64,000 nt of DNA from positions 1,050,501-1,114,500 of the forward strand of contig NZ_JASJPW010000001.1 of NCBI RefSeq assembly GCF_030052995.1. Direction: 5' to 3'. Shown piece by piece: positions 1,477-19,736 of the stretch (positions within the stretch are counted from its first letter, which is position 1; each line of letters opens with the position of its first letter). The position numbers and the translations under genes were made by a program. Origin of the DNA: Gemmobacter sp. 24YEA27 (GTDB taxonomy: Bacteria > Pseudomonadota > Alphaproteobacteria > Rhodobacterales > Rhodobacteraceae). The notes under the pieces are model-generated. The model did not search any database, was not told the origin of the DNA, and was given only the letters and a program-made list of their open reading frames with translations.

Positions 1477-1513
1477 GACCCGTCCTTCACTGCTGTTCGT
1501 TGCGCGCCCCTTG

Positions 1514-2851
1514 CTACTGCGGCAGGCAAGGCGGGTCATCCCCGGAAGCGACGTTTTCCGCCCGCTTTCGCGTCGCGGATGACAGTTTCACCGCTTGTTT
1601 GCGCCGGGATGCCACCGGGATGCCCAGCTGCTCGCGGTATTTGGCGATGGTGCGCCGGGCCAGTGGTGCGCCGGCACCGGCCAAAGCTTCGGCCAGGGTT
1701 GCATCGGTCAGGGGCGCGGTCGGGTCTTCGGCTGCGATCATCTGCGCCAGCGCATCGCGCATCGCCGCCCCTGCCGGCCCACCCTTGCGCACGGCGGGCG
1801 AGAACATCGCGCGCAGCCAATAGACCCCGCTTCCGGTATCGACCGAGGTGCCCTGGACAAGCCGGCTCACCGTGCTCTGATGCAGGCCAAGACTTGCCGC
1901 CACCTCGCTCATGGTCATGGGGGAAAGCGCGCGCAGCCCCTGTTTCGCAACCAGCGGCTGGCGGCGCAGGATCTCGGTCCCGATGCGCAACAGCGAATTG
2001 TTGCGGCTTTCCACAAGGCGGATCACCTCGCGCGCGGCAGCGCGGTCGCCCGCTCCTGTTGCGGGCTGCAGCCGGATCGAAGGCAGCGCCGAATGGTTCA
2101 GGCTGAGTTCCGGCCCCGAAGATCCCTCGCGCAGCACAAGGTCCGGTTCGGCCACCGGTGCGGAGCCGGGCTGAAACCGCGCGCCGGGCTTCGGGTCATA
2201 GCTGCGCAACATGCGGATGCGGCGCGCGATTTCCTCGGCCGTTGCGCCGGTCTTTACCGCCAGCGCCTCCAGATTGCCGGCCGCGACCAGCGTCAGATTG
2301 GCCAGCACCGCCTGCATGACCGGGTCGAGCTCCCCTGTGTCGTGGGCCTGGAGGCTCAGGCATTCCGCAAGGTTGCGCGCAAAAAGCCCGGCGGGTTCCA
2401 TCGCCTGGAGCTTAAGCAGCACCGCTTCAAGCGCCGCCGGTGTACTGCCGGTATCGCGGGCGATGCGGCTCAGCGGCGGCCCGAGCCAGCCGCTAGGTTC
2501 CAGCGCCGAACACAGCGCCAGCGCCAGCGGCATTTCGGCAGGCGCCAGCCGCATCAGTGCCACGCCCGCCGCGACATGGGCCTGCAACCCCGGCGCGGGG
2601 GCGGCCAGCGCCTCTGTCCCGCCACCCGCCCGCGATTGCCGCGACAGCGCATCATGCCAGCGCGGCGCCCAGATCACGGGCAGCGCCGGCGGAGGAACCA
2701 GCTGCAATTGCGGGTTTTGCGCGGCCATATCCTCGAGCCAGATGCCAAGCGAGCCCGCATCCGATTTCAGCATGGAAATCGCGCTGACCAGAGACAGGTT
2801 CAGCGACAGGCGCTGTTTCTGGGCGATGGTGATGCGGTTGCGCTGTTTCAT
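1514..2851 (-). CDS. rpoN: RNA polymerase sigma-54 factor RpoN
   Basis: 445 residues, slightly shorter than the roughly 480 of enterobacterial RpoN. Region I is recognisable at the N-terminus (KQRLSLNLSLVSAISMLKS) as the activator-responsive segment. A helix-turn-helix (MSEVAASLGLHQSTVSRLV) lies in the C-terminal half. The diagnostic RpoN box is present near the end as ARRTIAKYRE, and it contacts the -24 element. The start MKQRNRITIAQ is chosen because it aligns with region I; a longer in-frame extension to 2965 has no family resemblance. Rhodobacter species often carry several rpoN copies with separate regulons, so this may be a specialised paralog. It is transcribed away from the secreted-protein gene at 2989. 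Confidence 0.93.
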   Translation of the reverse strand: MKQRNRITIAQKQRLSLNLSLVSAISMLKSDAGSLGIWLEDMAAQNPQLQLVPPPALPVIWAPRWHDALSRQSRAGGGTEALAAPAPGLQAHVAAGVALMRLAPAEMPLALALCSALEPSGWLGPPLSRIARDTGSTPAALEAVLLKLQAMEPAGLFARNLAECLSLQAHDTGELDPVMQAVLANLTLVAAGNLEALAVKTGATAEEIARRIRMLRSYDPKPGARFQPGSAPVAEPDLVLREGSSGPELSLNHSALPSIRLQPATGAGDRAAAREVIRLVESRNNSLLRIGTEILRRQPLVAKQGLRALSPMTMSEVAASLGLHQSTVSRLVQGTSVDTGSGVYWLRAMFSPAVRKGGPAGAAMRDALAQMIAAEDPTAPLTDATLAEALAGAGAPLARRTIAKYREQLGIPVASRRKQAVKLSSATRKRAENVASGDDPPCLPQ

Positions 2852-2988
2852 GGCGCGACTTTGCCGGGGCGCGGGCGGCACTTCAATCGGCAAAGAAGGC
2901 CGCCTGGCCTGGGTCGCTTTGCGGCTTCTCTCTTGCCGCGCTTTGCGCCAGAATTGACCGGGCAATGCCCCTTTGCCTGCTGTGTCCC

Positions 2989-3726
2989 ATGTTCCGCGCG
3001 TCTCTGTCCCTGATCCTTTTCTGTTCCTCCCCCGCGCTTGCTGAAGGCGAGGCGAAGGCTCCGGGTCCGGTGGCCACGCTGGCGCTCGCGCTCAGGCTTT
3101 ATGACCAGGCCGAGGGGCAGGGCGATGCTTTGGGCATGGCGGTCGCAGCGCGCCTTGCGGCGACGATCCGCCAGCGCGAGGCGAGCCATTGGGAGCGGCA
3201 AAGTGGCAATTATGCCGGGCCGGTGCTGCATGGCCAAGGGGCGGCGGGCCTGCGGGCGACGCCTGATCTGCTGACCTCTGGCGCGGCCTGGTCGGGCGCG
3301 CTGTTGATGGCCGAAGAAGATGAGGCGCTCAGCGATCTGCTTTATGAACTGCCGCCGCCGGTGCTGCGTGGTGGGGTCAGCCAGATGGCGGCAGAGCTGA
3401 AGCCCGGGCGCGAGGATCGCTGGTCGCTGCCCTTTGCCGGACAAAGCCCCGCCGAGATCGCGGTCTTCGCCACCGGGACAGAAAGCGATGCACCCCAAAG
3501 CGATGCGGGCACAAACGATGCGGGCGTGAACGATACGGGCGCGGGGGGCACATTGCTCTGGGCGGTCGAAGATGGCGCGGGCGGCGTTCTTTGCCCGATA
3601 CGGCCCGTTGCCGCCAATGTCTGTAGTTTCACCCCGGCCGAGAATGGCTTTTACGAGGTGGTGATCGCCAATGCTGCGGGCGACTCCGCAGCGCGGGCCG
3701 GGGCCTATCTGCTTGTCGCCAACTGA
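2989..3726 (+). CDS. Small secreted protein A of the caspase/trypsin locus (PPC-like C-terminal domain)
   Basis: About 245 residues with a signal peptide (MFRASLSLILFCSSPALA). It is paralogous to the proteins at 3822 and 11646. All three have a helical N-terminal stretch (here TLALALRLYDQAEGQGDALG) and a beta-rich C-terminal part resembling bacterial pre-peptidase C-terminal domains. All three also have two cysteines about 10–12 residues apart and an identical style of ending (LLVAN, LVTN, LMTN). This copy has an extra Asp/Thr/Gly-rich insert around residues 165–180 (SDAGTNDAGVNDTG). The start is uncertain: ATG 2989 fits the signal peptide, ATG 2965 is possible, and neither has a strong ribosome binding site. 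Function is unknown. Position suggests it is a substrate, chaperone or inhibitor of the neighbouring proteases. Confidence 0.7.
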   Translation: MFRASLSLILFCSSPALAEGEAKAPGPVATLALALRLYDQAEGQGDALGMAVAARLAATIRQREASHWERQSGNYAGPVLHGQGAAGLRATPDLLTSGAAWSGALLMAEEDEALSDLLYELPPPVLRGGVSQMAAELKPGREDRWSLPFAGQSPAEIAVFATGTESDAPQSDAGTNDAGVNDTGAGGTLLWAVEDGAGGVLCPIRPVAANVCSFTPAENGFYEVVIANAAGDSAARAGAYLLVAN

Positions 3727-3821
3727 CGGGCGCGGATGAGCGCATTTGTTACCGCTGCGTGACTTCCCAAACCCTTGCCTGGCTGCGACACTGCCTGAAC
3801 GACCCCTGACGAGGAGCCGCC

Positions 3822-4538
3822 ATGTCTTTCCCTGCCTGTTCCGCACCCCGTCGCCTTGCTGCGGGGCTGTTTGTTGCGGCGCTTTTCGCCGGTCAGGCCG
3901 TCGGCCCGCTGGCCGCCGAAGAGGCGAAAGGGCCGAATATCACCACAGGGGCAAGTGGCGCGGCGGGCGCAGTGGCGACGCTGGCGCTGGCGCAGGAGCT
4001 TTTCGGGCTTGGCCGTTCCCATGGCGATGCGCTGACCGTGCTCGCCGCCGCCCGCCTCGCCGCTTCGGCAGAGGTCTCGCCCGGCAAGGAGTTCAAACGC
4101 AGCACCAGCGGTGAGGGCGAGGCCGGCCCGGATGCGGCATCCGCCCCCGCAGATGCGGGTGCGATGTTCGACCTCGCGCTGACCCTCGCCGCGCAGGATG
4201 AGTTTCTGACCGATGTGATCCTTGAGGCGCAAACCGCCACGGCCAGGGGCCGGATCGGGGGCGCCTTTTCGCAACGCGCCAGCCTGGCGGCGGGGCGGAC
4301 CGATAACTGGGAAATCCCCTTCACTGGCGGCGCCTATGCCGAACTCGCTGTACTTGGCAACGGGACATCCGATCTCGACATCATGGTCACCGATGAGACT
4401 GGCAATGTCATCTGCTATGAAGGCGGCCAGGAAGACAGGCTCTATTGCGATTTCGTGCCCTCCTGGGACGGGTTCTTCTTTGTCGCGGTCGAAAACAAGG
4501 GCGCCGCCGCTGCGGCCTATGACCTTGTGACCAACTGA
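3822..4538 (+). CDS. Small secreted protein B of the caspase/trypsin locus (PPC-like C-terminal domain)
   Basis: 238 residues. The start at 3822 has a good ribosome binding site (GAGGAG, spacer CCGCC). The signal peptide ends around GPLAAEE. The helical N-terminal half (ATLALAQELFGLGRSHGDAL) matches protein A closely. The C-terminal half (DNWEIPFTGGAYAELAVLGN, then SDLDIMVTDETGNVICYEGG) is a typical PPC-like beta sandwich: an aromatic/Asp turn, two cysteines (ICY and LYC), and a final YDLVTN. It lies 95 bp after protein A on the same strand and is followed by a hairpin terminator, so A and B probably form one unit that converges on the trypsin gene. No catalytic motif is visible. Confidence 0.78.
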   Translation: MSFPACSAPRRLAAGLFVAALFAGQAVGPLAAEEAKGPNITTGASGAAGAVATLALAQELFGLGRSHGDALTVLAAARLAASAEVSPGKEFKRSTSGEGEAGPDAASAPADAGAMFDLALTLAAQDEFLTDVILEAQTATARGRIGGAFSQRASLAAGRTDNWEIPFTGGAYAELAVLGNGTSDLDIMVTDETGNVICYEGGQEDRLYCDFVPSWDGFFFVAVENKGAAAAAYDLVTN

Positions 4539-4565
4539 GCCGCGCGGCTGCACCGAAACCAGAAT

Positions 4566-4596
4566 CCCCCGGACGCCATGCCGGCTCCGGGTTTTT
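4566..4596 (+). terminator. Rho-independent terminator after secreted protein B
   Basis: Inverted repeat CCCGGA (4568–4573) / TCCGGG (4586–4591) followed immediately by TTTTT. It sits 28 bp past the stop of the gene ending at 4538 and in the convergent gap before the trypsin gene stop at 4639. Confidence 0.7.
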
Positions 4597-4638
4597 CCTG
4601 GTGCTGCGAGGATGCCTTCGGGCGCCGGACGGATCCGG

Positions 4639-5730
4639 TCAGGGATTGGCGGTGATGACCTCATTCAGCCAGGGCACAAAATGCGACACATCGGTATAGG
4701 CCGAAAACTGCGCCATTTCCGGGCAGCCATGGCCAGAGGCATCGCTCAGACCCCAGCTGACGATTCCGGCCTGGATGTATTTTCCATTGTCCAGCGGCAC
4801 CACCAGCGGCCCGCCGCTGTCACCATTGCACGAGCTTTTGCCGCCCTCGAAAGTGCCCGAACAGATCATATTCTCGCTCATCGGCATCGGCGCCGCAGCC
4901 ATGATCTCATCCCAGAGCGCATAGGCTTTGTCCTCTGGCACATCCATCAGATTGACGGCAAAGGCAAAGCCCTCGACGGCCTCTTCGGCGCGACCTTCCA
5001 GCAGGACCTGGTTGCACAATTCGCGGTCCAGCATCTGGATCTGCGCCTGCATCAGCTGTGACGAAGGCACTGCGCCCGCCTGAAGCCCCCATCCGGTGAC
5101 AACCGTGGTGATCCCCGGCTCGCGCAGAAGATCGCCGTAAGTGGCATCCGGCACCTCGACCGTCTTATACGGGACCTGCGGTTTGCGCGCGAGTTTGACC
5201 AGCGCGATATCATAGTCGAAATCATTCACCGAATAGGACGGATAGGTGAAAACCGCCTCGACCGGCACCCGGTCGCCGCTGCCATCCAGCAGGTTGGTGC
5301 CGACAAGAATGTCGAAATCGCCGGGCTTCAGATCGGCCCCATTGCCGGCGTCATCCGCCATATGGACGCAATGGGCGGCGGTCAGCACCCAGCGATCCAT
5401 CACCATGGACCCACCGCAGAACTGGCTGTCGGTGCTGATCGGCTGACCGCTGATCAGGAAAGCAACCTGCCAGGGCCAGGCGCCATCGGCTGCGGGCTGG
5501 CCGCCGACCACTTTCGCCCCCGATGGTTCGGCTTTCGCAGCTTTCTCGCCGCGTTCGGCCTTGGCGCCCGAGGCGGCAAAGCTGTAGGGCGAGCTTTCGG
5601 CGGCGCTGGTTTTTGCGCTGAAACCGGGGTGGGTGGGGCTTTCTGCCAGGGCAATGCCGGTGACACTGCACAAGAGCACCAGGGCGGAAAGCGGCCTGAG
5701 AACAGTGGCTGGCATGAAGCGCGAGGTCAT
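4639..5730 (-). CDS. Secreted trypsin-like serine protease (S1 family) with pro-region
   Basis: 363 residues from ATG 5730, which follows AAGGATCAAAGAG. A start at 5775, directly after the caspase stop, is the alternative. The signal peptide ends near SVTGIALA (residue 29). Residues 30–73 are an Ala/Lys-rich pro-region ending SGAK, followed by VVGG, the classical new N-terminus of an activated chymotrypsin-fold protease. The catalytic triad is complete: His120 (TAAHC), Asp174 (DYDIAL) and Ser305 (GDSGGP). Cysteines at CGGS/AAHC and around CNGDSGG fit the usual disulphides. There is a Gly/Ala/Glu-rich insertion between Asp174 and Ser305 (EGRAEEAVEGFAFAVNLMD). The gene follows the caspase gene with no gap if 5775 is used, so the two are very probably co-transcribed and co-translated. 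Confidence 0.9.
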   Translation of the reverse strand: MTSRFMPATVLRPLSALVLLCSVTGIALAESPTHPGFSAKTSAAESSPYSFAASGAKAERGEKAAKAEPSGAKVVGGQPAADGAWPWQVAFLISGQPISTDSQFCGGSMVMDRWVLTAAHCVHMADDAGNGADLKPGDFDILVGTNLLDGSGDRVPVEAVFTYPSYSVNDFDYDIALVKLARKPQVPYKTVEVPDATYGDLLREPGITTVVTGWGLQAGAVPSSQLMQAQIQMLDRELCNQVLLEGRAEEAVEGFAFAVNLMDVPEDKAYALWDEIMAAAPMPMSENMICSGTFEGGKSSCNGDSGGPLVVPLDNGKYIQAGIVSWGLSDASGHGCPEMAQFSAYTDVSHFVPWLNEVITANP

Positions 5731-5775
5731 CTCTTTGATCCTTCTGCGGAATTGGGCTGGGGCCGTGATGGCCAT

Positions 5776-7803
5776 CTATTCGGAATTGGTCGGGTTCAGC
5801 CGCACTATCTGGCGGATCATCGTCAGATCGGCGGGTTTGGTGGAAAAGCCGCGCATCGAGGTCTCGTCTTGCGGTGAGATCTGGCTTTCCAGCCAAAGCG
5901 CGGTGTCGCTTCCACCCTCAGCCGTACCGCGCAGCGTCGCGCTGGCGAGCGAGGTCAGATCGGTGCGCAGCGCATGGCTCTCGTTCATCGGGACGGCCAG
6001 GATCCAGATCTCTTCGACCCCGGCATGGCTGACGGGGTCGATCTGTAACCCGACCCGCGCGGCCTCGCCCGGGGCGATGCGGTTCACGATATTCTGCGAA
6101 GGCCAGATCGGCAGCACCTCCATATCTGAGGAGAGATAGAGCACCGTGACATCCTGCGCCTTGCCCGAACGGTTGGTCAGCGTAAGCCAGAGCTGGTCGC
6201 AGCCATTCACCCCCTGCGCCGGGTCATGCGCCGCACCTGCCCCCGCCTTGCCGCTGCAGGAGGCGCCTTGCACCGGGTCGGTGATTTCGGTGCCGGGGCG
6301 GCGCTCGATTGCGACGGATATCACCTCGGTTTTCGTAAAACCGCGCCCTGCGGCCTGGGCCAGGACGTCGCGCAACCGCGTCGCATGGGCCATGGTAGAA
6401 AGCACGCGCTCCAGGGCATCCGCCTCGGTTTCGCCCTCCAGGACCAGGACGCGCGGTGATGTCCCGGGGCCGCCCGCGTCAAGCACCGCATCGGGGCCGG
6501 CAAGCGCGAGAAGCCCACCGGTCAGGACCGGCACCAGATCCGGCGCCGCACCCGGCTTCGGTTTTGGCGCGGCGGCGACCGCCGCTTCCCAGGTACCATA
6601 ATCCAGCCCGTCGTCGGGATCGGCGCGCACCAGGCCCGCCAGCGTCAGCGGCACAGGATCGGGAAGCCTGCCGGGCGCGGCCCAGATCGTCGCGCCTTTC
6701 GCGACCTGCGGCAGCGGGCCGCTGATCTTCGCCTCGCGCGCGCCGACCTTGCCGAGCGTCACGGATCCGATGCTCTCGCCCCCGGCGCCGGAGGCGAAAA
6801 GCACGATCTCCCCCCCCTCGGCAAAGCCCTGCAAAAGGCCCGCCTGCAGCACGGATCCATTGATCCGGTACCGCGCGGCGCCGGCACCTTCGCCAAAGAC
6901 CCGTTCCTGCAAAAGCGTGCCCTCGGCATCGGGGAGTTGCCGCGCCACGCCCTGGATCATCGCATCCGAGGTGGCAGCAAGCACCTGCTGCCAGGTCGCA
7001 TCCTCTGCGCTGGCCAGAACCTGAGCGAGGCGCAAAGTGAATTCGCCATGCCAGATCCCGGTATCGCCCAGCGGATATTCAAATGATCGCTCATCAGATT
7101 GCGAGGAATAGAGAAAGACGAAATCTCCGGACAGCTCTGCCGCGCCGGTGAACGGGACCGGCGGCAGGTCATCGGGAATCCCAAGCGCCCCGGGGTTCAG
7201 CGAACGGGCAACGCCTGCCGCCGGATCGGGATCAATGGCGCGAAAGCCGGTGGCCGAATGACAGGCGTCGATAATGCCGACCAGCTTTACATCGCGCGAC
7301 AGCAGGCCCTGGGCCCAGAGGTTCAGCTCATCATCAACGATAGCATTCTCCACCATGCCGATCTCGCCTCGCCAGTTCTTTGCATCCATCGGCAGGAAGA
7401 TCTCGTCATAGCCGCCCCCCTCATCGCCGTTCAGATCGGGCGCCTGGGAGCCGTGGCCAGAGAAATAGAAGACCAGCGTATCGCCTGGCGCGGCATCGGC
7501 CGCCGCCTGGTCAAGCGCGGCGAATATCCCCGCGCGGGTTGGTGCGGCGATGGTGGCGCCCTCGGGAAGACTGGCCGGATCGGTGGTCAGGATGGTCATG
7601 GCCTCAGGCGCGATCCCGCGGCCGGCCAGCACTTCGGCCATCAGCCGCACGTCATTGGGCGGCCCTTTCAGATCGGCATCCAGATACTCATAATCGCCAA
7701 CCCCGATCAGGACGGCCCGGGTGCCGGCATGAATCGTCGTGCCCCAGAACAGGAGGCTGGCGGTCAGGGCATATGTGAGCTGCGGTTTCATGCGCGAAAA
7801 CAT
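5776..7803 (-). CDS. Secreted caspase-family protein (C14 p20 fold), caspase 1 of the locus
   Basis: About 675 residues. A signal peptide (start MFSRMKPQLTYALTASLLFW, ending near TTIHAG) places the protein in the envelope. The caspase p20 domain spans roughly residues 28–270. The catalytic dyad is His117 in YFSGHGSQ and Cys181 in IDACHSATG, and the family glycine/Asp motif GVGDYEYLDADLKGPPND follows the first strand. The C-terminal 150 residues resemble a DUF4384-type beta domain (LTNRSGKAQDVTVLYLSSD), shared with the second caspase at 12312. Start is ambiguous between ATG 7803 and ATG 7791; a TTG at 7827 is less likely. Downstream neighbour: trypsin-like protease. Upstream: histidine kinase, response regulator and HtrA on the same strand. 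Bacterial members of this type usually cut after Arg or Lys; that is family knowledge, not visible here. Confidence 0.88.
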   Translation of the reverse strand: MFSRMKPQLTYALTASLLFWGTTIHAGTRAVLIGVGDYEYLDADLKGPPNDVRLMAEVLAGRGIAPEAMTILTTDPASLPEGATIAAPTRAGIFAALDQAAADAAPGDTLVFYFSGHGSQAPDLNGDEGGGYDEIFLPMDAKNWRGEIGMVENAIVDDELNLWAQGLLSRDVKLVGIIDACHSATGFRAIDPDPAAGVARSLNPGALGIPDDLPPVPFTGAAELSGDFVFLYSSQSDERSFEYPLGDTGIWHGEFTLRLAQVLASAEDATWQQVLAATSDAMIQGVARQLPDAEGTLLQERVFGEGAGAARYRINGSVLQAGLLQGFAEGGEIVLFASGAGGESIGSVTLGKVGAREAKISGPLPQVAKGATIWAAPGRLPDPVPLTLAGLVRADPDDGLDYGTWEAAVAAAPKPKPGAAPDLVPVLTGGLLALAGPDAVLDAGGPGTSPRVLVLEGETEADALERVLSTMAHATRLRDVLAQAAGRGFTKTEVISVAIERRPGTEITDPVQGASCSGKAGAGAAHDPAQGVNGCDQLWLTLTNRSGKAQDVTVLYLSSDMEVLPIWPSQNIVNRIAPGEAARVGLQIDPVSHAGVEEIWILAVPMNESHALRTDLTSLASATLRGTAEGGSDTALWLESQISPQDETSMRGFSTKPADLTMIRQIVRLNPTNSE

Positions 7804-7842
7804 GCCTGGACTTCGCGGACCGGGCAAGGGGCCTGCGCGTGA

Positions 7843-7857
7843 TGACAGTATTTGTCA
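7843..7857. promoter_or_regulatory. Inverted repeat upstream of caspase 1, candidate response-regulator site
   Basis: TGACA-GTATT-TGTCA, a perfect 5-bp inverted repeat with a 5-bp spacer, lying 40–54 bp upstream of the caspase 1 start. A same-length element, TGACA-AAGCC-CGTCA, is at 11548–11562 in the divergent promoter region of the locus. The pairing is an inference and a chance match is possible. Confidence 0.35.
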
Positions 7858-7880
7858 CCTCTGGTCTGTGGCGCGAGCCG

Positions 7881-7965
7881 GGGGGTTCACACCCCCGGAC
7901 CCCCGTGGAGTATTTCAGTCAAGAGGAAGAGGCATTTCCTCTTGATCCAAATACTCCCTCCGGAG
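7881..7965. repeat. Dispersed GC-hairpin/GGAGTATTT repeat, two inverted core copies
   Basis: A GGGGG…CCCCC hairpin (7881–7896) is followed by two inverted copies of a 22-bp core, at 7907–7928 and 7936–7957. Nineteen of 22 positions pair. The core begins GGAGTATTT and ends TCAAGAGGAA. The element lies between the histidine kinase and caspase 1, and the last 15 or so codons of the kinase are written in it. Confidence 0.75.
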
Positions 7966-9354
7966 GCATCCGGCCTCAGCCAGGGGGAGGGGCTGCCATT
8001 CCAGGCGAAGCGTCAGGCCCTGGTCGGTTGCCGGAAGCGAGAGTTTTGCGCCGTGGCGCATGGCAATCGCGCGCACAAGCGCGAGGCCGAGGCCATGGCC
8101 CCTGATGCCCCGGTCACGGTCGGCGCGGGTGAAACGCTCGAAAATCTCGTCGCCCATGCCCCTGGGCAGGCCAGGGCCGCTATCGGCAATCTCGAGCAGA
8201 TGCAGCGGGCCCGGGGAGAGGGTCAGGCCCAGCCGGTCGCCGGGGGCACAGTATTTGATCGCGTTATCAAGCAGATTGGCCAGCATCTGGGAGATCAGCG
8301 TGCGATCTCCCAGCACCATCAGGCCAGGGGCGATATCCGCCACCGGGATCAGGCCCTTTTCTTCGGCGGCCGCTTCGTAAAGCTCCCAGACCCCTTCCGC
8401 GAGGGAGGAGAGATCAACCGGCAGCAGTCCACCGCCGGAGCCCTGATCCGCCTCGGCGCGCGAGATATCGAGAAGCGCATCGAAGATCCGGATCGCGCCG
8501 CGCATTTCTTCGCGCAACTGGCTGACGGTATTTTCCTGGTCCTTGATGGCCGAGAGCCTCGTCGCCATCCGGTTCAAGGGTGTCCGCATCTCATGCGCGA
8601 TGGTGTCCGAGAGCCGGTGCGTGGCGCGGTTCAGGCTTTCGATCCGGTCCAGCATATGATGCATATGGGTTTCCAGAAGGCCGAACTCATCCGGTTTGCG
8701 CGGGCCGGGCAGGCGGGCTTCGAGATCCCCGGCTGCGACCTGATCCGCGAGCCGGTTCAGCCGCCCGATCCGCCCCATCACCTGGCGCGCCGCGATCCAG
8801 CCCACCAGCGCCGCCGCCGCCAGCAGCGCGAGGGCCAGCCCGATCATCCCTTGCCTCAGCGCCGCCAGCGTTGCATCGACCGGCGCCAGCGGGCGTCCGG
8901 CCAGAAGGCCGAAGCCGCCAGGCAATTCACGCGCCACCACCATCCAGCGGTCTGTGCCCCGGGTGATCTCCTGCGGGGTGGAAAGGTCAAAACCCGCACC
9001 TTGCGGTGCCACATCGGCGGGCCAGCGGTCTTCGGTTCCGGCGAGGATCCGGCCATGGCGGTCGGTCAGCAGCAGGAGTTCCTGCCCGCCAGAGGCCGCA
9101 CGATAGTCAATAGCCTGGCGCAGCGCGATGATGCGGCGCTGGTCGTAAAGCGCGCCAAGACCACTGAGATCGGCGGAGAGCAGATCTTTTTGCGCCTCGG
9201 TCAGCCTCGTCGCCACCAGCCGGTATTGCAGCGCCATCGCGCCCAGCGACAGCACCGCGACCGCCGCTGCCATCAGGCCTGCCAGTCGCAGCGTGGCGCG
9301 GGCCCGGAGCACGGGGCGCGCGGACACAAGGCGCGGCTCCGGATCAGCCGCCAC
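7915..9354 (-). CDS. Membrane sensor histidine kinase of the protease locus
   Basis: About 479 residues from GTG 9354, preceded by GGAGAG; this start overlaps the response-regulator stop by 11 bp, as expected for a coupled pair. A TTG at 9381 would be longer. Two membrane segments (LAGLMAAAVAVLSLGAMALQ and MIGLALALLAAAALVGWIAA) bracket a periplasmic domain of about 130 residues. HAMP and dimerisation regions follow, with the phospho-accepting His254 in DTIAHEMRTPLNRM. The ATPase motifs are N-box NLLDNAIKY, G1 DSGPGLP and G2 GHGLGLAL. The extreme C-terminus (about YLDQEEMPLPLD) is encoded by a dispersed repeat, so the ancestral stop was probably a little earlier. It presumably senses an envelope signal and controls the protease genes on either side. 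Confidence 0.9.
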   Translation of the reverse strand: MAADPEPRLVSARPVLRARATLRLAGLMAAAVAVLSLGAMALQYRLVATRLTEAQKDLLSADLSGLGALYDQRRIIALRQAIDYRAASGGQELLLLTDRHGRILAGTEDRWPADVAPQGAGFDLSTPQEITRGTDRWMVVARELPGGFGLLAGRPLAPVDATLAALRQGMIGLALALLAAAALVGWIAARQVMGRIGRLNRLADQVAAGDLEARLPGPRKPDEFGLLETHMHHMLDRIESLNRATHRLSDTIAHEMRTPLNRMATRLSAIKDQENTVSQLREEMRGAIRIFDALLDISRAEADQGSGGGLLPVDLSSLAEGVWELYEAAAEEKGLIPVADIAPGLMVLGDRTLISQMLANLLDNAIKYCAPGDRLGLTLSPGPLHLLEIADSGPGLPRGMGDEIFERFTRADRDRGIRGHGLGLALVRAIAMRHGAKLSLPATDQGLTLRLEWQPLPLAEAGCLRREYLDQEEMPLPLD

Positions 9355-10054
9355 CGGGCTCTCCGGCCATGGGTTGTGCAAACAGATAGCCTTCGCCCCG
9401 GACCGAGCGGATCACATGGGCGCCGGCCTCTTCCAGTTTGCGCCGCAGCCGCCCGACATGCACGTCGACGACATTGGTGCCTGGGTCGAAATGCAGGTTC
9501 CAGACGGTCTCCAGCAGCTGCATCCGGGTGACGACATGGCCGGCATTCTGCGCGAAAAAGGTGAGCAGCGCGAATTCGCGCGGCGAGACCGGCACATGGC
9601 TGCGCCGCACATGCACGGTGCGCGCCTTCAGCCGGATTTCCAGATCGCCAAAGGCCATAAGGTCATTATCCGCGACCTGGATCGTGCCGCGCCTGAGCAG
9701 GGCGCGCAGCCGGGCGCGGAGCTCCTCGGGCTCATAGGGTTTCGGCAGATAGTCATCGGCGCCCTTTTCGAGCCCCTCGACCCGCTCCGCCGCGCGGCCA
9801 AGCGCCGAAAGCACCAGGATCATCGCGCGCGACCCTCCGGCGCGGATCTGCGCTATGGCGTCAACCCCGTCGCCGCCGGGCAGCATCCGGTCGAGCACGA
9901 TCACCCGGTAATCGCCGCTGGCGGATTCGGTGAGGCCGCCGGCCAGGGTGTCGTGATGGCTGGGCTCGCAGCCAAGCGCGCGCACCTCATTGGCCACGGC
10001 GGCGGCGATGTCGGGGTCGTCCTCGATGATCAGGATGCGGTCGGTCATGGCCAT
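9344..10054 (-). CDS. OmpR/PhoB-family response regulator of the protease locus
   Basis: 236 residues from ATG 10054; ATG 10048 is the alternative (MTDRILIIEDD). The receiver domain carries the acidic pair EDD at residues 11–13, phospho-acceptor Asp55 (VIVLDRMLPGGDG) and the conserved Lys in YLPKPYEP. The C-terminal winged helix is of OmpR type (SPREFALLTFFAQNAGHVV, then VDVHVGRLRRKLE and RGEGYLF). It is the first regulator after the HtrA gene (7 bp gap) and overlaps the kinase gene, so htrA-like–RR–HK–caspase–trypsin can be one transcript. Likely targets are the divergent promoter at 11481–11645 and the region ahead of caspase 1. Confidence 0.92.
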   Translation of the reverse strand: MAMTDRILIIEDDPDIAAAVANEVRALGCEPSHHDTLAGGLTESASGDYRVIVLDRMLPGGDGVDAIAQIRAGGSRAMILVLSALGRAAERVEGLEKGADDYLPKPYEPEELRARLRALLRRGTIQVADNDLMAFGDLEIRLKARTVHVRRSHVPVSPREFALLTFFAQNAGHVVTRMQLLETVWNLHFDPGTNVVDVHVGRLRRKLEEAGAHVIRSVRGEGYLFAQPMAGEPGGG

Positions 10055-10061
10055 TGCAGAT

Positions 10062-11480
10062 TCAGAACACCACAACCGCCGGGTCAAGCACATTCGCGCC
10101 GCCGATGGCACGCGGGCCGGTCGCCGTGCCCCAGGGGTCAAGCCAGAGATGCCGCGTGACCCCGTCCGGCGCCTCGACCAGCAAGAGCGTGGCGGCGGTG
10201 ATTTCCAGCACTTCCAGCCCGGGCCCGTCCATCGCGGCGCCATTCACGGCGCGGATACGGTCGCCTTTGGCGAGGCCTGCGAGTGCGGCGGGGGAGTTGA
10301 TTGTCAGATCCGAGACCCGGCCGTCTTCGCCCTGCACCACGCCAAGCGCCGCGAGACGATAGCTGCGGATACGCTCGGGGACGGGGGGCGCGCCTTCGGG
10401 GCCGCGCAATGTGAGGCCGATCAGGCCGGGCTCGGGCGCGGCGGCGCTGAAATCCAGGACCAGGGTCAGATCCTCGCTCGCGCGGGACAGGGTTATGCCG
10501 GCAGAGCCCGCTCCCAGCACGGCATCAAGCAGGAAGGCGAAATCGCCGGGATTTTGCACCTTTGTGTCATTGACTGACAGGATGATGTCGCCGGCAAGGA
10601 TGCCCGCACCCGCAGCCAGCCCGCCAGGGTTTACCGCATCAACCAGCAGCCCTTCGGCAGCTACTCCCAGCGTATCGGCGAGCTTGCGATCCACGGGCCG
10701 CGCATTCAGGCCGAGCTTCGGGAAGGGCAGCAGGCTCTCATCGATCAGACCGTCGACGATGCGGCTCAGATCGCTGCCTGAAATCGCATAGGCGATACCG
10801 ACAAACATGCGGCTGCCATCGGCGATGCGGCTGTTCATGCCCATAAGGCGCCCTGCTGCGTCGACCAGAGGCCCGCCCGATGATCCTGGATTCACCGCCG
10901 CATCATGCTGGAGGAACATCAGCGGCACCGCGAGATCGATCTGGCGTGCCATGGCCGAGACCATGCCCCGCGTCAGGGTGAATTCCGCGCCAAGCGGCGC
11001 GCCAAGAGCATAGACCTCAAGCCCCGGCAGGGGGGGAGCGTCCGAGACCTCGATGCCGGTCAGCGCGGCACCATCCGGGCCGGCAAGCCCTGGCTCCAGC
11101 TGCAGGATGGCGACATCGCGGGTGCTGTCGCGGCCGATCACGGTGGCGATCACCACATTGCCCTGCCGGTCGGTGACGCGCACCTCTTCCGCCGCGCCTA
11201 CCACATGGGCATTGGTCACGGCGATATCCGCGACGCCTGCCCAGATAAAGGCCGAGCCGAGAAAGGCATCCTCGCGATCCGCGCTGCGCACCACCAGAAC
11301 CTGATCCATCGCCAGATCGGTTGCGGCCCGGAGAGGCGCAGAGACGGGCGCAATGGTCTCGGCCCGCGCGGCAGTGGAAACCCCAACCATTTGCAGCGTC
11401 TGAACAGCGAGGATGGCGGCAAGCAGCGGGGCCGCAAAGCGGGGCCAGGCCCTGTTCCGGACCCTTTTATCGAGGTGCAT
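10062..11480 (-). CDS. Secreted HtrA/DegP-like serine protease with PDZ domains
   Basis: 472 residues. A long N-region and hydrophobic core end near STAARAE, consistent with export. The catalytic triad is visible: His92 (TNAHVVG), Asp122 (RDVAILQL) and Ser201 (NPGSSGGPL). Two PDZ-like segments follow, one around residues 270–350 (GLLVDAVNPGGLAAGAGILAG) and a weaker one near 380–450 (SPAALAGLAKGDRIRAVNG). The start at 11480 has GGAG about 10 bases upstream. Canonical HtrA proteins act in periplasmic quality control. Here the gene heads a unit with a two-component system, a caspase and a trypsin-like protease, which argues for a dedicated role rather than the housekeeping degP, though that is inference. 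Confidence 0.88.
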   Translation of the reverse strand: MHLDKRVRNRAWPRFAAPLLAAILAVQTLQMVGVSTAARAETIAPVSAPLRAATDLAMDQVLVVRSADREDAFLGSAFIWAGVADIAVTNAHVVGAAEEVRVTDRQGNVVIATVIGRDSTRDVAILQLEPGLAGPDGAALTGIEVSDAPPLPGLEVYALGAPLGAEFTLTRGMVSAMARQIDLAVPLMFLQHDAAVNPGSSGGPLVDAAGRLMGMNSRIADGSRMFVGIAYAISGSDLSRIVDGLIDESLLPFPKLGLNARPVDRKLADTLGVAAEGLLVDAVNPGGLAAGAGILAGDIILSVNDTKVQNPGDFAFLLDAVLGAGSAGITLSRASEDLTLVLDFSAAAPEPGLIGLTLRGPEGAPPVPERIRSYRLAALGVVQGEDGRVSDLTINSPAALAGLAKGDRIRAVNGAAMDGPGLEVLEITAATLLLVEAPDGVTRHLWLDPWGTATGPRAIGGANVLDPAVVVF

Positions 11481-11541
11481 TCTTACAGTCTCCGGCTCTT
11501 TCTCAACGCTGTCGGCAGGTTAGACCGCCGGGCCGCCCGGG

Positions 11542-11565
11542 GTCACATGACAAAGCCCGTCACAT
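11542..11565. promoter_or_regulatory. Repeated GTCACAT motif in the divergent protease-locus promoter region
   Basis: GTCACAT occurs at 11542–11548 and again at 11559–11565, a 17-bp direct repeat. Overlapping it is TGACA-AAGCC-CGTCA (11548–11562), similar in layout to the inverted repeat ahead of caspase 1. The 165-bp region separates the htrA-like unit (minus) from the secreted protein C/caspase 2 unit (plus), so one regulator could control both. Confidence 0.35.
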
Positions 11566-11645
11566 TGAGATTGTGCGTTTACAGCCCGCATCCATCGCCC
11601 CATCCTGCCGCAATCCGAAACAGCCCCGTGACCCGAGCAGATCCC

Positions 11646-12284
11646 ATGACCCTTTCCGCCCGTATCGCCGCCCGGCTGGCCAGTTCTGTCATGATCGCCC
11701 TGCTGGCCCCTGCAGCAAAAGCCGAAGGGCCGGGCCCGCTGCGTCAGGCGGCGCTGTCGGCCGAGCTTTACGCCCGGGGGCTGGCGGAGCAGGATCCGCT
11801 CCTGATCCTCGCTGCCGCACAATTGCGCAAGTCGGTCGATATGCAACCGCTGGAACCGGACCCCCAGGGGGCTGCGCCCGCCTTCGCCCCGCTTGGATGG
11901 GAGGCGATGATCGCAAGCGCGGTCGCGCTGACCAGTGATGGCGATCCGCTCAGGGAACTGGCCGAGGATATCACCGCACAAAGCTGGAAGGGCGTCATTC
12001 ATGGCCCGGTCTACCGGATCGGCGCGCTGGAGGGAGGCGCGGAGACCCGGTTGCCGGATCTCTCGTTCCGGGGCGGTGAGTATGCCGAAGTCTATGCCGA
12101 GGCCGAGCCGGGCCTCGATCTCAACATCACCATTCTCGATTCCGAAGGCCGTGAAGTCTGTTCCGACACGGATCCCACCCATGTCGCCTATTGTGGCTGG
12201 ACTCCGGCGGCGGATGGCAGCTTTACCCTGGTCATTGTGAATTCAAGCGCGCGGGATGCCGGGTTCGCGCTTATGACCAACTGA
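11646..12284 (+). CDS. Small secreted protein C of the caspase/trypsin locus (PPC-like C-terminal domain)
   Basis: 212 residues with a signal peptide (MTLSARIAARLASSVMIALL, ending about PAAKAEG). It is paralogous to the proteins at 2989 and 3822. The N-terminal helix pattern (ALSAELYARGLAEQDPLLIL) aligns with theirs. The C-terminal beta domain contains LDLNITILDSEGREVCSD and VAYCGWTPAADGSF, with the same two cysteines, and it ends FALMTN like its relatives. It lies 27 bp ahead of caspase 2 on the same strand, giving a tight two-gene unit, so one such protein is physically coupled to a caspase gene. No catalytic residues are apparent. Confidence 0.8.
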   Translation: MTLSARIAARLASSVMIALLAPAAKAEGPGPLRQAALSAELYARGLAEQDPLLILAAAQLRKSVDMQPLEPDPQGAAPAFAPLGWEAMIASAVALTSDGDPLRELAEDITAQSWKGVIHGPVYRIGALEGGAETRLPDLSFRGGEYAEVYAEAEPGLDLNITILDSEGREVCSDTDPTHVAYCGWTPAADGSFTLVIVNSSARDAGFALMTN

Positions 12285-12311
12285 CTGAATATACGCCAGA
12301 AAGGGCAGGAC

Positions 12312-14441
12312 ATGATCCGCAGGTTTCTTCTGACCACGGCGCTTGGGCTACTGGCCTTCCCGGCGCTGGCGCGCGAGAATTACGCGTTGCTGATCGGAGC
12401 GAGCGATTATCAGAATATCGAAAAGCGCTGGTCCCTGAAGGGGCCGAAAAACGATATGGACCTGGTGGCGAATTACCTGCTGACCGAGGCGCCGGTGCCG
12501 TTTCAGGCGGAAAACGTCACGGTGCTGACCGATAAGGAGGGTGCCGAGCCGGCGACTTTGGGCAATATCCGCGCGGCTTTTGCCGATCTGACCGCAAAGG
12601 CGCGGCCGGGCGATTTCATCTATCTCCACCTTTCGGGTCATGGCACCCGCGCCCCGGCGCTGGATCCCGAATCTGAACCCGATGGCCTCGACGAGCTGTT
12701 CCTGCCGGTCGATATCGGCAGCTGGAACAACACGGTCGGCACGGTCGAAAATGCGCTGGTCGATGATGAGATCGGCCAGCTGCTCGACGGGTTGCGCGCG
12801 AAGGGCGCCGATGTGTGGATCGTGCTCGACAGCTGTCATTCCGGCACCGCCACCCGCGCCATCGAGACCGAAGACGATGTGGTGATGCGCCAGCTTGATC
12901 CCGCCGCGCTGGGGATCACGGATGAGATGATCGACGCGGCGGTCGACCGGGCGTCAGCTATGGCAGAGGTTGCGAACCGAGGTATCGGCAGCGGGGCTGC
13001 GGGCAATGGAACCGGGGGCGGGGTTTCCTTCCTGCTGAAGGAGGCAACCGTGGCGGCTGAAGGCGTGGAGCCCGGCGGTCTGGTGGCCTTTTACGCCGCG
13101 CAAAGCACCGAAATGACACCTGAGATGCGGCTGCCGCGCGGCGCCCCCGACCGCAAATCACAGGGCGTTTTCACCTTCACCCTGTTCGAGACGCTCGCGG
13201 AATATCCTGGTGCCACTTACGGCCAGGTCGCGCAGGAGGTCCTGCGCAAATATGCTTTGCGCGGAACCGCGAAATCGACGCCCTTGTTCGAGGGCGATCT
13301 GGACCGTGTGGTCTTTGGCGGCGAGGCGCGGGCGCGGGTCTCGCAATGGCCGGCGGTGGCGACGGATGCCGGTTTCACCCTGAATGCCGGCACGCTGCAC
13401 GGGCTCGCCGTCGGGACCGAGCTGGCCGTTATGGCATCCGCTGCCGATGGCAGCGACAAGGCGCTCGGGCTGGTCCGGGTGACCTCGGCCGATACGTTCA
13501 GCGCGACGACCGGGACCTTCGCGGGCGAGCTGCCCGAAGGGGTCTGGCTGCGGCGCAAAGAGGCGGGGCTGGATTTTTCGCTGACCGTGGCGCTGCCGCC
13601 CGGGGACTCGGCCCCGGCGCTGGCCCTCGCAGCCGCGATGGAGGATCTGCGCGAGATCGCGGGCCCGCGCCTGACCTTTGTGAAGGCGGGATCCGAGGCT
13701 GATCTGGCGCTGGCGGTGCTCCCGGACAGCGCGACGCCGGACACGCTCTGGATCCTGCCCGGCACCGGGCTTGCGGAAAGCGGCATCCAGGCGCCGAAGG
13801 TGGAAACCGCTGGCGTGGCGCCGGGGGACCTTGCCGGCAATCTGCAGGAAAAACTGACCGCGATTGCCAAAGCGGTGAACCTGATGAAGCTTGGCGCGGC
13901 GCTTGGGCCAGCGAACGGGCCGGGGGCACTTGATGTTCAGGTCGAGCTTCTGACCCGCAATGCCGATCACCCGACTCTGCGCGGGTTGCCCCTGGTGCCA
14001 GTGCCGGAACTGGTGACCAATGATGAGGTGCATGTTCTGGCCAGGAACAATATGGACCAGCCGGTCGATGTGAATGTGCTTTATATCGGCGCCGATTACT
14101 CGATCACGCACTTTTATGCCGGGCGGCTGCATCCGGGCGAAGAGATCAGAAAGGGGCTTTTTGCGATCGGAGGCGAGAGCATGGGGCAAGAGCGGATGAT
14201 CGTGGTGATGACCCCCGCGGCGCCCCATAGCAAGGTCGAGGATCTGAGCTGGCTTGCCCAGGACGCCGTGCGCAGCACGGGCCCCGGCGGTGGCTTTGCC
14301 GGCTCGCTCTATGAGGCGGGGTTTGGCCAGGGCACGCGGGGTGCGATTGCACTGAGCGATGACAGCGCGACGTCCGGCCCGGCGCCGGCGATCCTTCAGG
14401 TCGAGCTGCGCACCAGAGCGGATCAATCCGGGGCGGAGTGA
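12312..14441 (+). CDS. Secreted caspase-family protein (C14 p20 fold), caspase 2 of the locus
   Basis: 709 residues with a short signal peptide (MIRRFLLTTALGLLAFPALA). The p20 caspase domain carries catalytic His110 (HLSGHGTR) and Cys175 (LDSCHSGTATR). The first strand is followed by IGASDYQNIEKRWSLKGPKND, the same layout as caspase 1. A Gly-rich linker (around residues 225–240, GIGSGAAGNGTGGG) interrupts the domain. The C-terminal third has the DUF4384-like module shared with caspase 1 (LARNNMDQPVDVNVLYIGAD, then LHPGEEIRKGLFAIGG). It is second in a unit with secreted protein C and is divergently transcribed from the htrA-like/two-component unit. Substrates are unknown; candidates are the trypsin zymogen and the small secreted proteins. 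Confidence 0.88.
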   Translation: MIRRFLLTTALGLLAFPALARENYALLIGASDYQNIEKRWSLKGPKNDMDLVANYLLTEAPVPFQAENVTVLTDKEGAEPATLGNIRAAFADLTAKARPGDFIYLHLSGHGTRAPALDPESEPDGLDELFLPVDIGSWNNTVGTVENALVDDEIGQLLDGLRAKGADVWIVLDSCHSGTATRAIETEDDVVMRQLDPAALGITDEMIDAAVDRASAMAEVANRGIGSGAAGNGTGGGVSFLLKEATVAAEGVEPGGLVAFYAAQSTEMTPEMRLPRGAPDRKSQGVFTFTLFETLAEYPGATYGQVAQEVLRKYALRGTAKSTPLFEGDLDRVVFGGEARARVSQWPAVATDAGFTLNAGTLHGLAVGTELAVMASAADGSDKALGLVRVTSADTFSATTGTFAGELPEGVWLRRKEAGLDFSLTVALPPGDSAPALALAAAMEDLREIAGPRLTFVKAGSEADLALAVLPDSATPDTLWILPGTGLAESGIQAPKVETAGVAPGDLAGNLQEKLTAIAKAVNLMKLGAALGPANGPGALDVQVELLTRNADHPTLRGLPLVPVPELVTNDEVHVLARNNMDQPVDVNVLYIGADYSITHFYAGRLHPGEEIRKGLFAIGGESMGQERMIVVMTPAAPHSKVEDLSWLAQDAVRSTGPGGGFAGSLYEAGFGQGTRGAIALSDDSATSGPAPAILQVELRTRADQSGAE

Positions 14442-14456
14442 TCCGGGGCTTTGTGA

Positions 14457-15611
14457 TCAGGCCCGGGGCGGCGCGCCTTTCGGCATCGGATTCTTCGCCT
14501 TGTTATAGGGTTTCCAGTCACTGATATCGGGGTAGAACTGTTTGCGCCAGGCGCGCACCCGGGGGTTCATCGCGCGTTTCCACAAGGGCGGGATCATCGC
14601 GAGACTGGTCATCACCGGATAGCCGAAGGGCAGCTGCGGCGCCTCGTCTTTCTCGTAATTCTGCAAGAGCGGGAAGCGCCGGTCGGGTTTATAATGGTGA
14701 TCCGAATGGCGCTGGAGGTTGATCAGGAGCCAGTTCGTGGCCCTGTGTGCTGCATTCCAGGAATGGCGCGGCAGGGCATGTTCATAGCGCCCCTCGCCCA
14801 GATGACGGCGGGTGAGGCCGTAATGTTCAACATAATTCACCAGCTCCAGCTGCCATTGCGCGATCAGGGCCTGGGCCGCGAAGATCAGAAGGCCTTCCGG
14901 GCCGCCAAGCGCAACTGCGAGCGCGAGGAAGGCGGCCTGAAACGCCCAATAGCGCCAGAACGGGTTCGTCCGGTGCCACCAGGGCAGGTTCCTGCGCGCC
15001 AGCATTGCCGTTTCCGAGGCAAAGGCCGAGCGGCGCTGGCCGATCAGAACCCGGGGGAAAAAGCGGTGGAAGCCCTCGTTATAGCGGGCGGTGACCGTGT
15101 CGCGCGGCGTGCCGACATAGAGGTGATGTACGCGCATATGTTCAGAGCGGAAATGCGAATGCAGCACCGAGGCGAGGAGGAGATCTGCGGCCAGGCGCTC
15201 GATCTTCGGTTTCTGGTGGAGGAGCTCATGCGCATAATTCAGCCCGATGGTGCCGGCCATGACGCCCATGCCAAAGACCATGCCGGCTTTCTCCCAGCCG
15301 GTCATGGCGCTTTGCGGCAGATACCAGAGGGTGACGGCAAGGGTGGCAAGCTGGATCGGCACCCAGATCAGCGTCAGCAGCGTATAGACCCTGAGCTGGT
15401 CATCGGGGGTGTCGGGATCCGCATTGTCTTTGTTCAGGCCCAGAGCGGCATCGAGGGCGGGGAACAGGATCCAGCAATAGGCGGGGAGTGCCAGAACCCA
15501 GAGCCCGCCCCAGGTCAGGCCGGCGACCGCGATAGGCAGGGTGCCGAGGGAAAGCCAGAAGGGCAGGGCTTGCGCGGGGCTGGCCAGGGTGTCGGGTGAG
15601 AGCTGCGCCAT
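14457..15611 (-). CDS. alkB: AlkB-type alkane 1-monooxygenase / membrane fatty-acid hydroxylase
   Basis: 384 residues from ATG 15611, which follows GGAGGACGATC. It is an integral membrane di-iron enzyme. Histidine clusters are visible as HELLH, HSHFRSEHMRVHH, NYVEHYG and HSDHH, in the order seen in AlkB. The flanking hydrophobic segments fit six transmembrane helices. The family hydroxylates medium-chain n-alkanes at the terminal carbon using rubredoxin-delivered electrons; no rubredoxin gene is adjacent. Close relatives include uncharacterised fatty-acid desaturase-like proteins, so the substrate remains open. The gene converges on caspase 2 with a 15-bp gap. Confidence 0.85.
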   Translation of the reverse strand: MAQLSPDTLASPAQALPFWLSLGTLPIAVAGLTWGGLWVLALPAYCWILFPALDAALGLNKDNADPDTPDDQLRVYTLLTLIWVPIQLATLAVTLWYLPQSAMTGWEKAGMVFGMGVMAGTIGLNYAHELLHQKPKIERLAADLLLASVLHSHFRSEHMRVHHLYVGTPRDTVTARYNEGFHRFFPRVLIGQRRSAFASETAMLARRNLPWWHRTNPFWRYWAFQAAFLALAVALGGPEGLLIFAAQALIAQWQLELVNYVEHYGLTRRHLGEGRYEHALPRHSWNAAHRATNWLLINLQRHSDHHYKPDRRFPLLQNYEKDEAPQLPFGYPVMTSLAMIPPLWKRAMNPRVRAWRKQFYPDISDWKPYNKAKNPMPKGAPPRA

Positions 15612-15914
15612 GATCGTCCTCCGGTCGCGGCGGATGGTAACGCCGGAGCGGGCGCGGATCAACGCGACGAAATGTACGGCTGAGGCTGTGCGGAGCTCTC
15701 ACGCAGAGGGCGGGGATTTTATGGCAGCCGGAGGAGAGATGGCAGAGATCGGGCCGGTGCCCGGCGCGACGTGAAGGCCATATGCTGCGAGCATAGTTTT
15801 TCCATACCCGACCTTGCGGGAGAGGATGCATTTTGCGCCGGCTCGTGAACCCGGGGCGGTCGTGACCGCTGTCACGGCGCCAGCAGGCTGTTCATGTCTG
15901 GTCTGTCTTTGCCA
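15612..15914. other. 303-bp intergenic region, alkB promoter side
   Basis: This lies between the alkB start and the restored 3' end of mutY, both on the minus strand. It holds the alkB ribosome binding site. No open frame with family resemblance, tRNA or clear terminator was recognised. Confidence 0.5.
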
Positions 15915-17127: not shown

Positions 17128-17284
17128 GATTTATGGCCTCCGTTGCCGCCGGTATTGCTTCCGGGCTTTCCGCCGCGCCTGCTTGCTCTAAGATAGGCTG
17201 CGAATTTGGCCGGGGAAACCGTCTGTGTGCGCTTTCATGGCGCGCTCATTTCCGGCCATACCGATCTGGCAAAGACAGGACCCC

Positions 17285-17842
17285 ATGGCGCGCAAGCCCG
17301 CCAGCCTTCCGTCAAAAGAACACCGCCGGCGCGGGTTCGAACCGGCATTTTCGCTGGTCTCGAACCAGGTGCGCGGCGCGGGAGAGGCGCGGGGCTTTGC
17401 GGTGGCGCGTCTGGTGACCCATTGGGCCGAGACCGTGGGCGAAGATATCGCAAAGATCACCCGGCCGGTGAAGATCGGCTATGCGACCGCAGGCCCGGGC
17501 GGCAAAGGCTCGGGCATGGGTGCCACGCTCACGCTGCTTGTCCAGGGCGCACATGCGCCGATGATTGGAATGCAGCTTGACCGGATCCGCGAGCGCGTCA
17601 ACGCCGTCTATGGCTATAACGCCATTTCGCGCGTTTATCTGACCCAGACCGCCAGCACCGGCTTTGCCGATGGCCAGGCGCAATTTACCCATGCCCCCGC
17701 AGTGCCACGCCCTGACCCGGAGGCCGAGGCAAAACTCACCGCCACCGCCGCGCGGCAGACCGAAGGCGTCGGCGATCCCGGCCTTCGCGCAGCGCTTGAG
17801 CGGCTCGCGCAGAACATATTATCCCGCCCAGACAGGAAATGA
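17285..17842 (+). CDS. DciA-like DUF721 protein
   Basis: 185 residues from ATG 17285, with AGGA eight bases upstream. The region HWAETVGEDIAKITRPVKIGY is the DUF721/DciA signature, and the following segment (LTLLVQGAHAPMIGMQLDRIRERVNAVYGYNAI) is its KH-like fold. DciA proteins load the replicative helicase DnaB in bacteria that lack DnaC; many DUF721 proteins of alphaproteobacteria are annotated only by domain. It is divergent from mutY and 10 bp upstream of a DsbA-like gene, an order I recognise from other Rhodobacteraceae. Confidence 0.8.
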   Translation: MARKPASLPSKEHRRRGFEPAFSLVSNQVRGAGEARGFAVARLVTHWAETVGEDIAKITRPVKIGYATAGPGGKGSGMGATLTLLVQGAHAPMIGMQLDRIRERVNAVYGYNAISRVYLTQTASTGFADGQAQFTHAPAVPRPDPEAEAKLTATAARQTEGVGDPGLRAALERLAQNILSRPDRK

Positions 17843-17852
17843 GGACGAGACA

Positions 17853-18518: not shown

Positions 18519-18523
18519 CCCCG

Positions 18524-19651: not shown

Positions 19652-19660
19652 AGCGGAGAA

Positions 19661-19728: not shown

Positions 19729-19736
19729 GAGGCAGC

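Follow-up and report, generated by a model that had tools for sequence, protein, structure and literature searches.

We analysed a 64,000-nucleotide stretch of DNA from Gemmobacter sp. 24YEA27 (assembly GCF_030052995.1, contig NZ_JASJPW010000001.1, positions 1,050,501 to 1,114,500, forward strand), referred to here as the window. Nine genes at positions 2989-14441 encode proteins A and B (plus strand); an S1 protease, caspase 1, a histidine kinase, a response regulator and an HtrA-type protease (minus strand); and protein C and caspase 2 (plus strand). This block is a real unit in Rhodobacteraceae, and comparison of upstream regions strongly supports co-regulation of its genes through a common control site. 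The genes and sites are listed below; G and L numbers denote sampled genomes and fetched loci, G000 being the window genome, and residue counts are over alignment rows, with short or incomplete rows dropped.

2989..3726, plus strand: protein A, predicted to be exported, a member of the A/B/C family (match to the B profile at E 1e-31; no Pfam match).
3737..3751, minus strand: control site before B in degenerate form, with two mismatches (one mismatch in L043, exact in L044).
3822..4538, plus strand: protein B, predicted to be exported, with a helical part and a possibly PPC-like part (B-family profile and relatives).
4639..5775, minus strand: S1 protease zymogen with a basic activation site and Ser at position 189 (Pfam and alignments).
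5776..7803, minus strand: caspase 1, predicted to be exported, with an ATG start at 7803 and an upstream TTG also possible (Pfam, structure model and alignment rows).
7843..7857, minus strand: exact control site TGACAAATACTGTCA upstream of caspase 1 (site scan).
7915..9381, minus strand: histidine kinase with HAMP, HisKA and HATPase_c domains, start uncertain (Pfam; phospho-His kept in 66/66 rows).
9344..10048, minus strand: OmpR-type response regulator (Pfam; phospho-Asp kept in 69/69 rows).
10062..11480, minus strand: HtrA-type protease with PDZ domains, predicted to be exported (Pfam, NCBIfam and alignment rows).
11548..11562, plus strand: exact control site TGACAAAGCCCGTCA between HtrA and C (site scan).
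11646..12284, plus strand: protein C, predicted to be exported, with a helical part and a PPC/GOLD-like sandwich (alignment and structure model).
12312..14441, plus strand: caspase 2, predicted to be exported (Pfam and alignments).

An earlier reading of this DNA (the original prediction) had described nine consecutive genes, seven of them encoding exported proteins. All nine lie where it placed them, and gene A probably starts at 2989, as it proposed. Export of the seven is suggested by signals recognized by eye (a hydrophobic core at the start, with AxA at the end of the core) and by a crude export-signal script, which was positive for orthologues of C (78/79), caspase 1 (53/55), caspase 2 (77/79), the S1 protease (45/52), HtrA (63/68), B (21/25) and A (7/7); the script was also positive for 21 of 69 cytoplasmic regulators and therefore lends export weak support. 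Pfam assigned the S1 protease to PF00089 (E 9.9e-45), the caspases to PF00656 (E 8.6e-22 and 3e-14) and HtrA to Trypsin_2 and PDZ, and it confirmed the predicted co-linear pair of a HisKA/HATPase/HAMP kinase and an OmpR-type regulator. The description of four proteases from three classes with intact catalytic residues also holds, given these families and the retention of the catalytic residues across nearly all orthologue rows. Rfam gave no match at its gathering threshold in positions 1-20000 of the window, and a scan of the window for promoters and terminators yielded nothing useful.

Across 149 sampled genera, caspase 1 orthologues occur in 10 and caspase 2 orthologues in 11 (one fragment included; E < 1e-100 for both caspases), and 10 genera have both (Fisher 1e-14, phylogeny ignored). 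Rare co-occurrence had been named beforehand as the outcome that would speak against a joint system; the opposite was found, as 10 of the 11 caspase-positive genera carry both caspases. The block recurs in the same order in G005, G026, G040, G099 and G100, with no S1 gene beside caspase 1 in G005; it is fragmented in G022 and G028, and G034 and G121 carry it in two parts, C-caspase 2//HtrA-regulator-kinase and caspase 1-S1. Fuscovulum blasticum DSM 2131 (L047) and Tabrizicola aquatica (L055) are among the species that have the locus. Gene presence was counted in caspase 2-anchored loci, the best 80 of 151 relatives from the caspase 2 alignment; 64 loci with at least 9 kb of flank were counted and the other 16, with too short a flank, were left out. 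In these 64 loci we found C in 63, the response regulator and the kinase in 61 each, HtrA in 60, caspase 1 in 55, the S1 protease in 53, a patatin-like gene in 44, B in 24 and A in 6; B is under-counted, as the 10-kb flank often stops short of it. The claim that these genes belong together is thus borne out by co-occurrence, by an order that recurs in many genera and by one site common to three promoter regions. Accidental neighbours with no joint function might be argued from the separation of the modules in G034 and G121, but the modules keep the common site even there, and with the recurring order and the co-occurrence statistics this leads us to reject the explanation, to which we give practically no weight.

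Among 385 genomes of the class, only the window genome and a further two gave a caspase 2 match (E <= 1e-60); these two both carry C-family genes within a few kb. One locus from another family of the class (L232, in G321; 452-7091) encodes a caspase, three C-family genes, a response regulator and a histidine kinase on one strand; tblastn found no HtrA or S1 gene in it, which marks it as a smaller relative of the system. Judged from these sequences, a caspase, a C-type protein and a two-component pair may be the oldest core of the system. The caspase 1 reading frames of L023, L029 and L035 are interrupted, by gene decay or assembly error, and the record of L093 is titled Exiguobacterium profundum, a title that is probably wrong, as its locus is of the Rhodobacteraceae type.

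The control site, TGACAAANNCNGTCA, was derived by comparing HtrA-C intergenic regions and is an inverted repeat of the form TGAC-N7-GTCA. Two window copies match it fully, one ahead of caspase 1 and one in the HtrA-C gap. Across the named loci, a copy with at most one mismatch precedes C/HtrA in 65/77 regions, caspase 1 in 42/55 and B in 18/21; none at that threshold lies upstream of the kinase (0/69), S1 protease (0/53), caspase 2 (0/81), response regulator (0/68) and patatin (0/46) genes, 0/317 in total; only 1 of 1540 shuffles reached one mismatch or fewer. A conserved TTTACAG follows the site in front of C. In PhoB-type promoters the regulator takes the place of the -35 element, and by analogy the TTTACAG fits such a replacement here.

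The site also accompanies the genes when they are dispersed. A 4.15-Mb contig of G034 carries the caspase 1, HtrA/C and B modules at distant places, each with an exact site (three of the six in the genome); in G121 a separate caspase 1 has a one-mismatch site, and HtrA/C and a separate B have exact ones (two of nine exact genomic sites). Profile searches of genomes having the system recovered six A/B/C-family genes that are unlinked to the main locus or whose contig is too short to place them (G022, G026, G034, G040, G100 and G121), and all six have an exact upstream site; the chance estimate for this, set after the fact for six 350-base regions, is 3e-21. Exact sites average 4.0 per genome in 7 genomes with the system versus 0.72 in 53 without; G020, which has C-caspase 2 without a two-component system and four sites, was left out of both groups. 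Both exact sites in the genome of Paracoccus sp. IB05 lie inside the locus, as do some of those in the other searched genomes. We regard a single shared regulon as very probable.

The site might instead belong to another envelope regulator, with the adjacent two-component system merely one of its targets, and genomes without the system, with roughly 0.7 exact sites each, would agree with this. However, the site tracks the system: against its presence at all six unlinked family members stand three family relatives in genomes without the system, where it is absent at one mismatch or fewer in 18 kb (0/3), and two informative loci with C-caspase 2 and no two-component system (L095 and L120) lack it, their best matches having four and three mismatches. 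CenKR of Rhodobacter sphaeroides is likewise an OmpR-type envelope regulator from the same bacterial family, but its site is a direct repeat, TGA-N8-TGA (PMC9275681; here and below, cited papers are drawn on in part). The CenR regulon was rejected as a candidate, as the window site reads GTC where that repeat needs TGA (only this site was compared). We therefore think control by another regulator quite improbable, and the adjacent response regulator is the likely regulator of the site-bearing genes.

Several observations weigh against one regulon of jointly acting parts. The site before B has two mismatches in the window and is not exact in G005, and of 153 promoter regions, 28 have no copy with one mismatch or fewer, a lack more common in distant genera. 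Only two of the five exact sites in the window genome are in the locus, two others lying inside open reading frames and one about 20 bp before an open reading frame. Sites with at most one mismatch number 54 in this genome (8 for a reversed-pattern control), of which two are in the locus; a match with one mismatch is therefore not enough by itself to delimit the regulon. The HtrA catalytic triad is lost in 3 of 65 rows. The parts are also separable, since six loci with the two-component system have no caspase 1 within the flank and two caspase 1 loci have no S1 gene. Inverted repeats are less usual than direct repeats for OmpR-type regulators. Direct repeats are described as frequent for them in the part of PMC9275681 used here.

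These sites modify the transcription units first proposed. The divergent arrangement stands; a single long minus-strand unit is doubtful, because caspase 1 carries its own control site in the gap between it and the kinase, and the minus-strand genes are probably transcribed as two or more units. A and B as a third unit are doubtful as well, since the degenerate site lies between them, and they may not form a simple unit.

Other occurrences of the site and of the family were seen outside the block. In L195 (G026:C11) a short gene at 6846-7202 matches the C family over the N-terminal helical part alone and has an exact site 103 bases before it, which makes it a possible extra regulon member. An exact site at 1501 in L172 (G153) precedes a gene that we take to be TolQ-like; tolQ was rejected as a conserved regulon member, as only 1 of 9 genomes has an exact site before such a gene. 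In G111, G104 and G077, which do not have the system, the B-type members (L190, L191 and L192) lie in a common neighbourhood of another kind and lack the control site.

The HtrA-type protein combines an S1C protease domain, PDZ domains and an export signal, and its catalytic triad is complete in 62 of 65 rows; it scores 198.9 bits against TIGR02037, below the cut-off of 416.2. HtrA is present in 60 of the 61 loci with a two-component system. In this the locus resembles CssRS-HtrA and Cpx-DegP, in which an OmpR-type regulator and a membrane kinase are encoded with, or control, HtrA/DegP (PMC9275681 for Cpx). It differs in its regulated set, which also takes in a pair of caspases, an S1 zymogen, the A/B/C proteins and, in many loci, a patatin, and in its kinase, which passes no NCBIfam cut-off among 25 listed, CpxA and BaeS included.

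The His-Cys dyad of the metacaspase/orthocaspase C14 fold is kept in 53/53 caspase 1 rows and 76/76 caspase 2 rows. The same rows all retain, at positions placed by sequence alignment, the two Asp of the basic S1 pocket (TbMC2 D95 and D211), the pair defined for metacaspases and orthocaspases in section 17 of PMC6426788, and both enzymes probably cut after Lys or Arg. They differ from the orthocaspases described there in their length (about 680-710 amino acids), a long extra C-terminal part, predicted export and an A/B/C partner protein. The best match of the caspase 1 structure model is metacaspase 4. In this model, the caspase 1 loop behind the catalytic Cys is disordered (residues 185-203 below 50 in predicted local distance difference test, pLDDT); it contains strictly basic positions at R196 and R/K208, as would be expected for self-processing. 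A family search of the window genome missed caspase 2, which the Pfam scan finds, and listed caspase 1 and a third caspase at G000:C1:1995112 (L038), of about 1140 amino acids, with repeats and an export signal by eye. From its sequence, this third caspase could act as an S1 activator as well. In G005, whose main locus has no S1 gene, a second, more distant caspase lies beside an S1 protease (L034; G005:C4:336445-339671).

The S1 protease was aligned in 50 rows including the window, with pieces below 280 amino acids dropped. His57 and Asp102 are kept in 50/50 rows and Ser195 in 49/49 (one gap), the triad being complete in every covering row, and a new N-terminus of the [IV][IV]GG type follows a basic residue in all 50 (Lys 31, Arg 19). 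Asp at residue 189 makes trypsin cut after Lys or Arg. With this position set by alignment to MASP-1 and TMPRSS6, we found Thr in 42 rows, Ser in 3, Gly in 2, Val and Leu in 1 each and Asp in 0/49 (one gap). The trypsin zymogen of the original prediction is thus an S1 zymogen with a basic activation site, and by specificity not a trypsin. The enzyme appears to resemble chymotrypsinogen in needing another agent to activate it at a basic site, because that site is always Lys or Arg and residue 189 is never Asp. No other S1 match better than E 1e-17 was found in the window genome, which thus seems to hold no other trypsin as an obvious activator; in G005 and G040, which also bear the system, another S1 gene with a strong match is present.

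The regulated proteolytic cascade first proposed thereby gains a concrete candidate step: a basic-site zymogen without a tryptic pocket is encoded next to caspases with a basic-P1 pocket. We give an even chance to activation of the S1 zymogen by a caspase. The kinase may sense the state of the envelope, as first proposed. The genes could also be co-regulated without any cascade, as a secretion or envelope-stress regulon like those of CssRS-HtrA and Cpx-DegP, the proteases being induced in parallel and the S1 protease maturing by itself or through another protease. The presence of HtrA in the regulator's own unit is a usual sign of envelope proteostasis (PMC9275681 for Cpx) and agrees with such a regulon. 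Self-activation is difficult to reconcile with an invariably basic site beside a pocket never fitted for Lys or Arg, and another protease with the lack of a second S1 match at the above threshold in the window genome (weaker ones were not typed). We consider parallel induction possible but rather unlikely.

Most relatives carry a gene that the original prediction could not see from the window. In six loci read directly, an extra gene between the kinase and caspase 1 encodes a protein of about 480 amino acids, and the three such proteins tested are patatin-like phospholipases (PF01734); starts resembling a lipobox were noticed by eye. No patatin was matched in the window genome at E 1e-5, in a search that had no positive control. 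The neighbourhood varies elsewhere too: L077 has a multicopper oxidase gene (Pfam) between HtrA and C at 7807-9267, L082 is like it by eye, and L071, L075, L078 and L083 have only a similar-sized HtrA-C gap.

The patatin in 44 of 64 loci would suit a suicide or anti-invader device, in which triggered caspases, the S1 protease and the patatin destroy the cell's own envelope. Caspases, trypsins and hydrolases are recurrent effectors in conflict systems, and the VMAP/EACC1 systems likewise pair caspases with a hydrolase and trypsins with small co-occurring proteins (PMC7159879, PMC8195603). Those systems are built on nucleoside triphosphatases (NTPases) and effector-associated domains, whereas Pfam finds neither among the nine genes, and the window locus has two-component control and proteins predicted to be exported. 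An EACC1-type system was rejected, as the NF047832 model (caspase_w_EACC1) gives the caspases 45.9 and 40.8 bits, well below its cut-off of 140. PADLOC returned only its generic caspase model for both caspases, RT-Protease_XI for HtrA (2.4e-11) and otherwise weak matches, and the window genome itself gave no patatin match. We judge a suicide device improbable; envelope quality control, rather than cell death, stands at about even.

At the E-values used, neither Pfam nor NCBIfam has a family that matches protein A, B or C. The three proteins were predicted to be paralogous, and they form one family, because the B profile matches both A and the C gene (E 4e-34 for the latter). One B relative carries the name 'Peptidase C-terminal archaeal/bacterial domain' in its source. 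In the structure model of C (mean pLDDT 85.9), the N-terminal part is helical and the C-terminal part looks like a sandwich of PPC/GOLD type; matches to solved structures span residues 115-212, so that the helical part is barely tested. A Cys pair is invariant in the alignments of C (C172 and C183; 42 sequences) and B (C198 and C209; 21 sequences) and fits a periplasmic disulfide. The C-family profile also has matches in G118 and G021. It is our tentative suggestion that these proteins inhibit the proteases or deliver substrates to them.

Cascades in which one protease activates the zymogen of another operate in coagulation, complement and apoptosis. At this locus, the OmpR-type regulator would bind TGACAAANNCNGTCA as an activator between the divergent HtrA-regulator-kinase and C-caspase 2 units, before caspase 1-S1 and before B. 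The exported caspases would cut after Lys or Arg, starting with the flexible loop that follows their own catalytic Cys and going on to the invariant activation site of the S1 zymogen, whose self-cleavage there is not expected because Asp189 is lacking. The freed S1 protease and HtrA would clear damaged envelope proteins, and most relatives would add a lipoprotein-like patatin phospholipase. In the weakest step, A, B and C, with C always beside caspase 2, would hold the proteases in check or deliver substrates. The sequences leave the chances evenly divided for this overall reading, a two-component regulon devoted to proteolysis in the periplasm, with a caspase as activator of the S1 zymogen. 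We advance more tentatively the complete extracytoplasmic cascade, in which the two-component system arms, basic-specific caspases initiate, a chymotrypsinogen-like S1 protease executes, A/B/C regulate as a new dedicated family and a phospholipase adds another output in most species.

Prokaryotic metacaspase genes are known from operons, up to three together, in Alphaproteobacteria among others and with proteolysis or sensor-domain neighbours (PMC3501461). The main text of that paper has no mention of trypsin, patatin or Rhodobact- names, and the passages drawn on here do not describe this arrangement and regulon. Among open-licence PMC papers we found no description of the locus, so its absence from print is not established. 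The combination of bacterial caspases, an S1 zymogen, a sensor of their own and a compact predicted regulon would make the role of exported bacterial caspases testable, and the locus would give a context to the A/B/C family, which is without a name in Pfam and NCBIfam.

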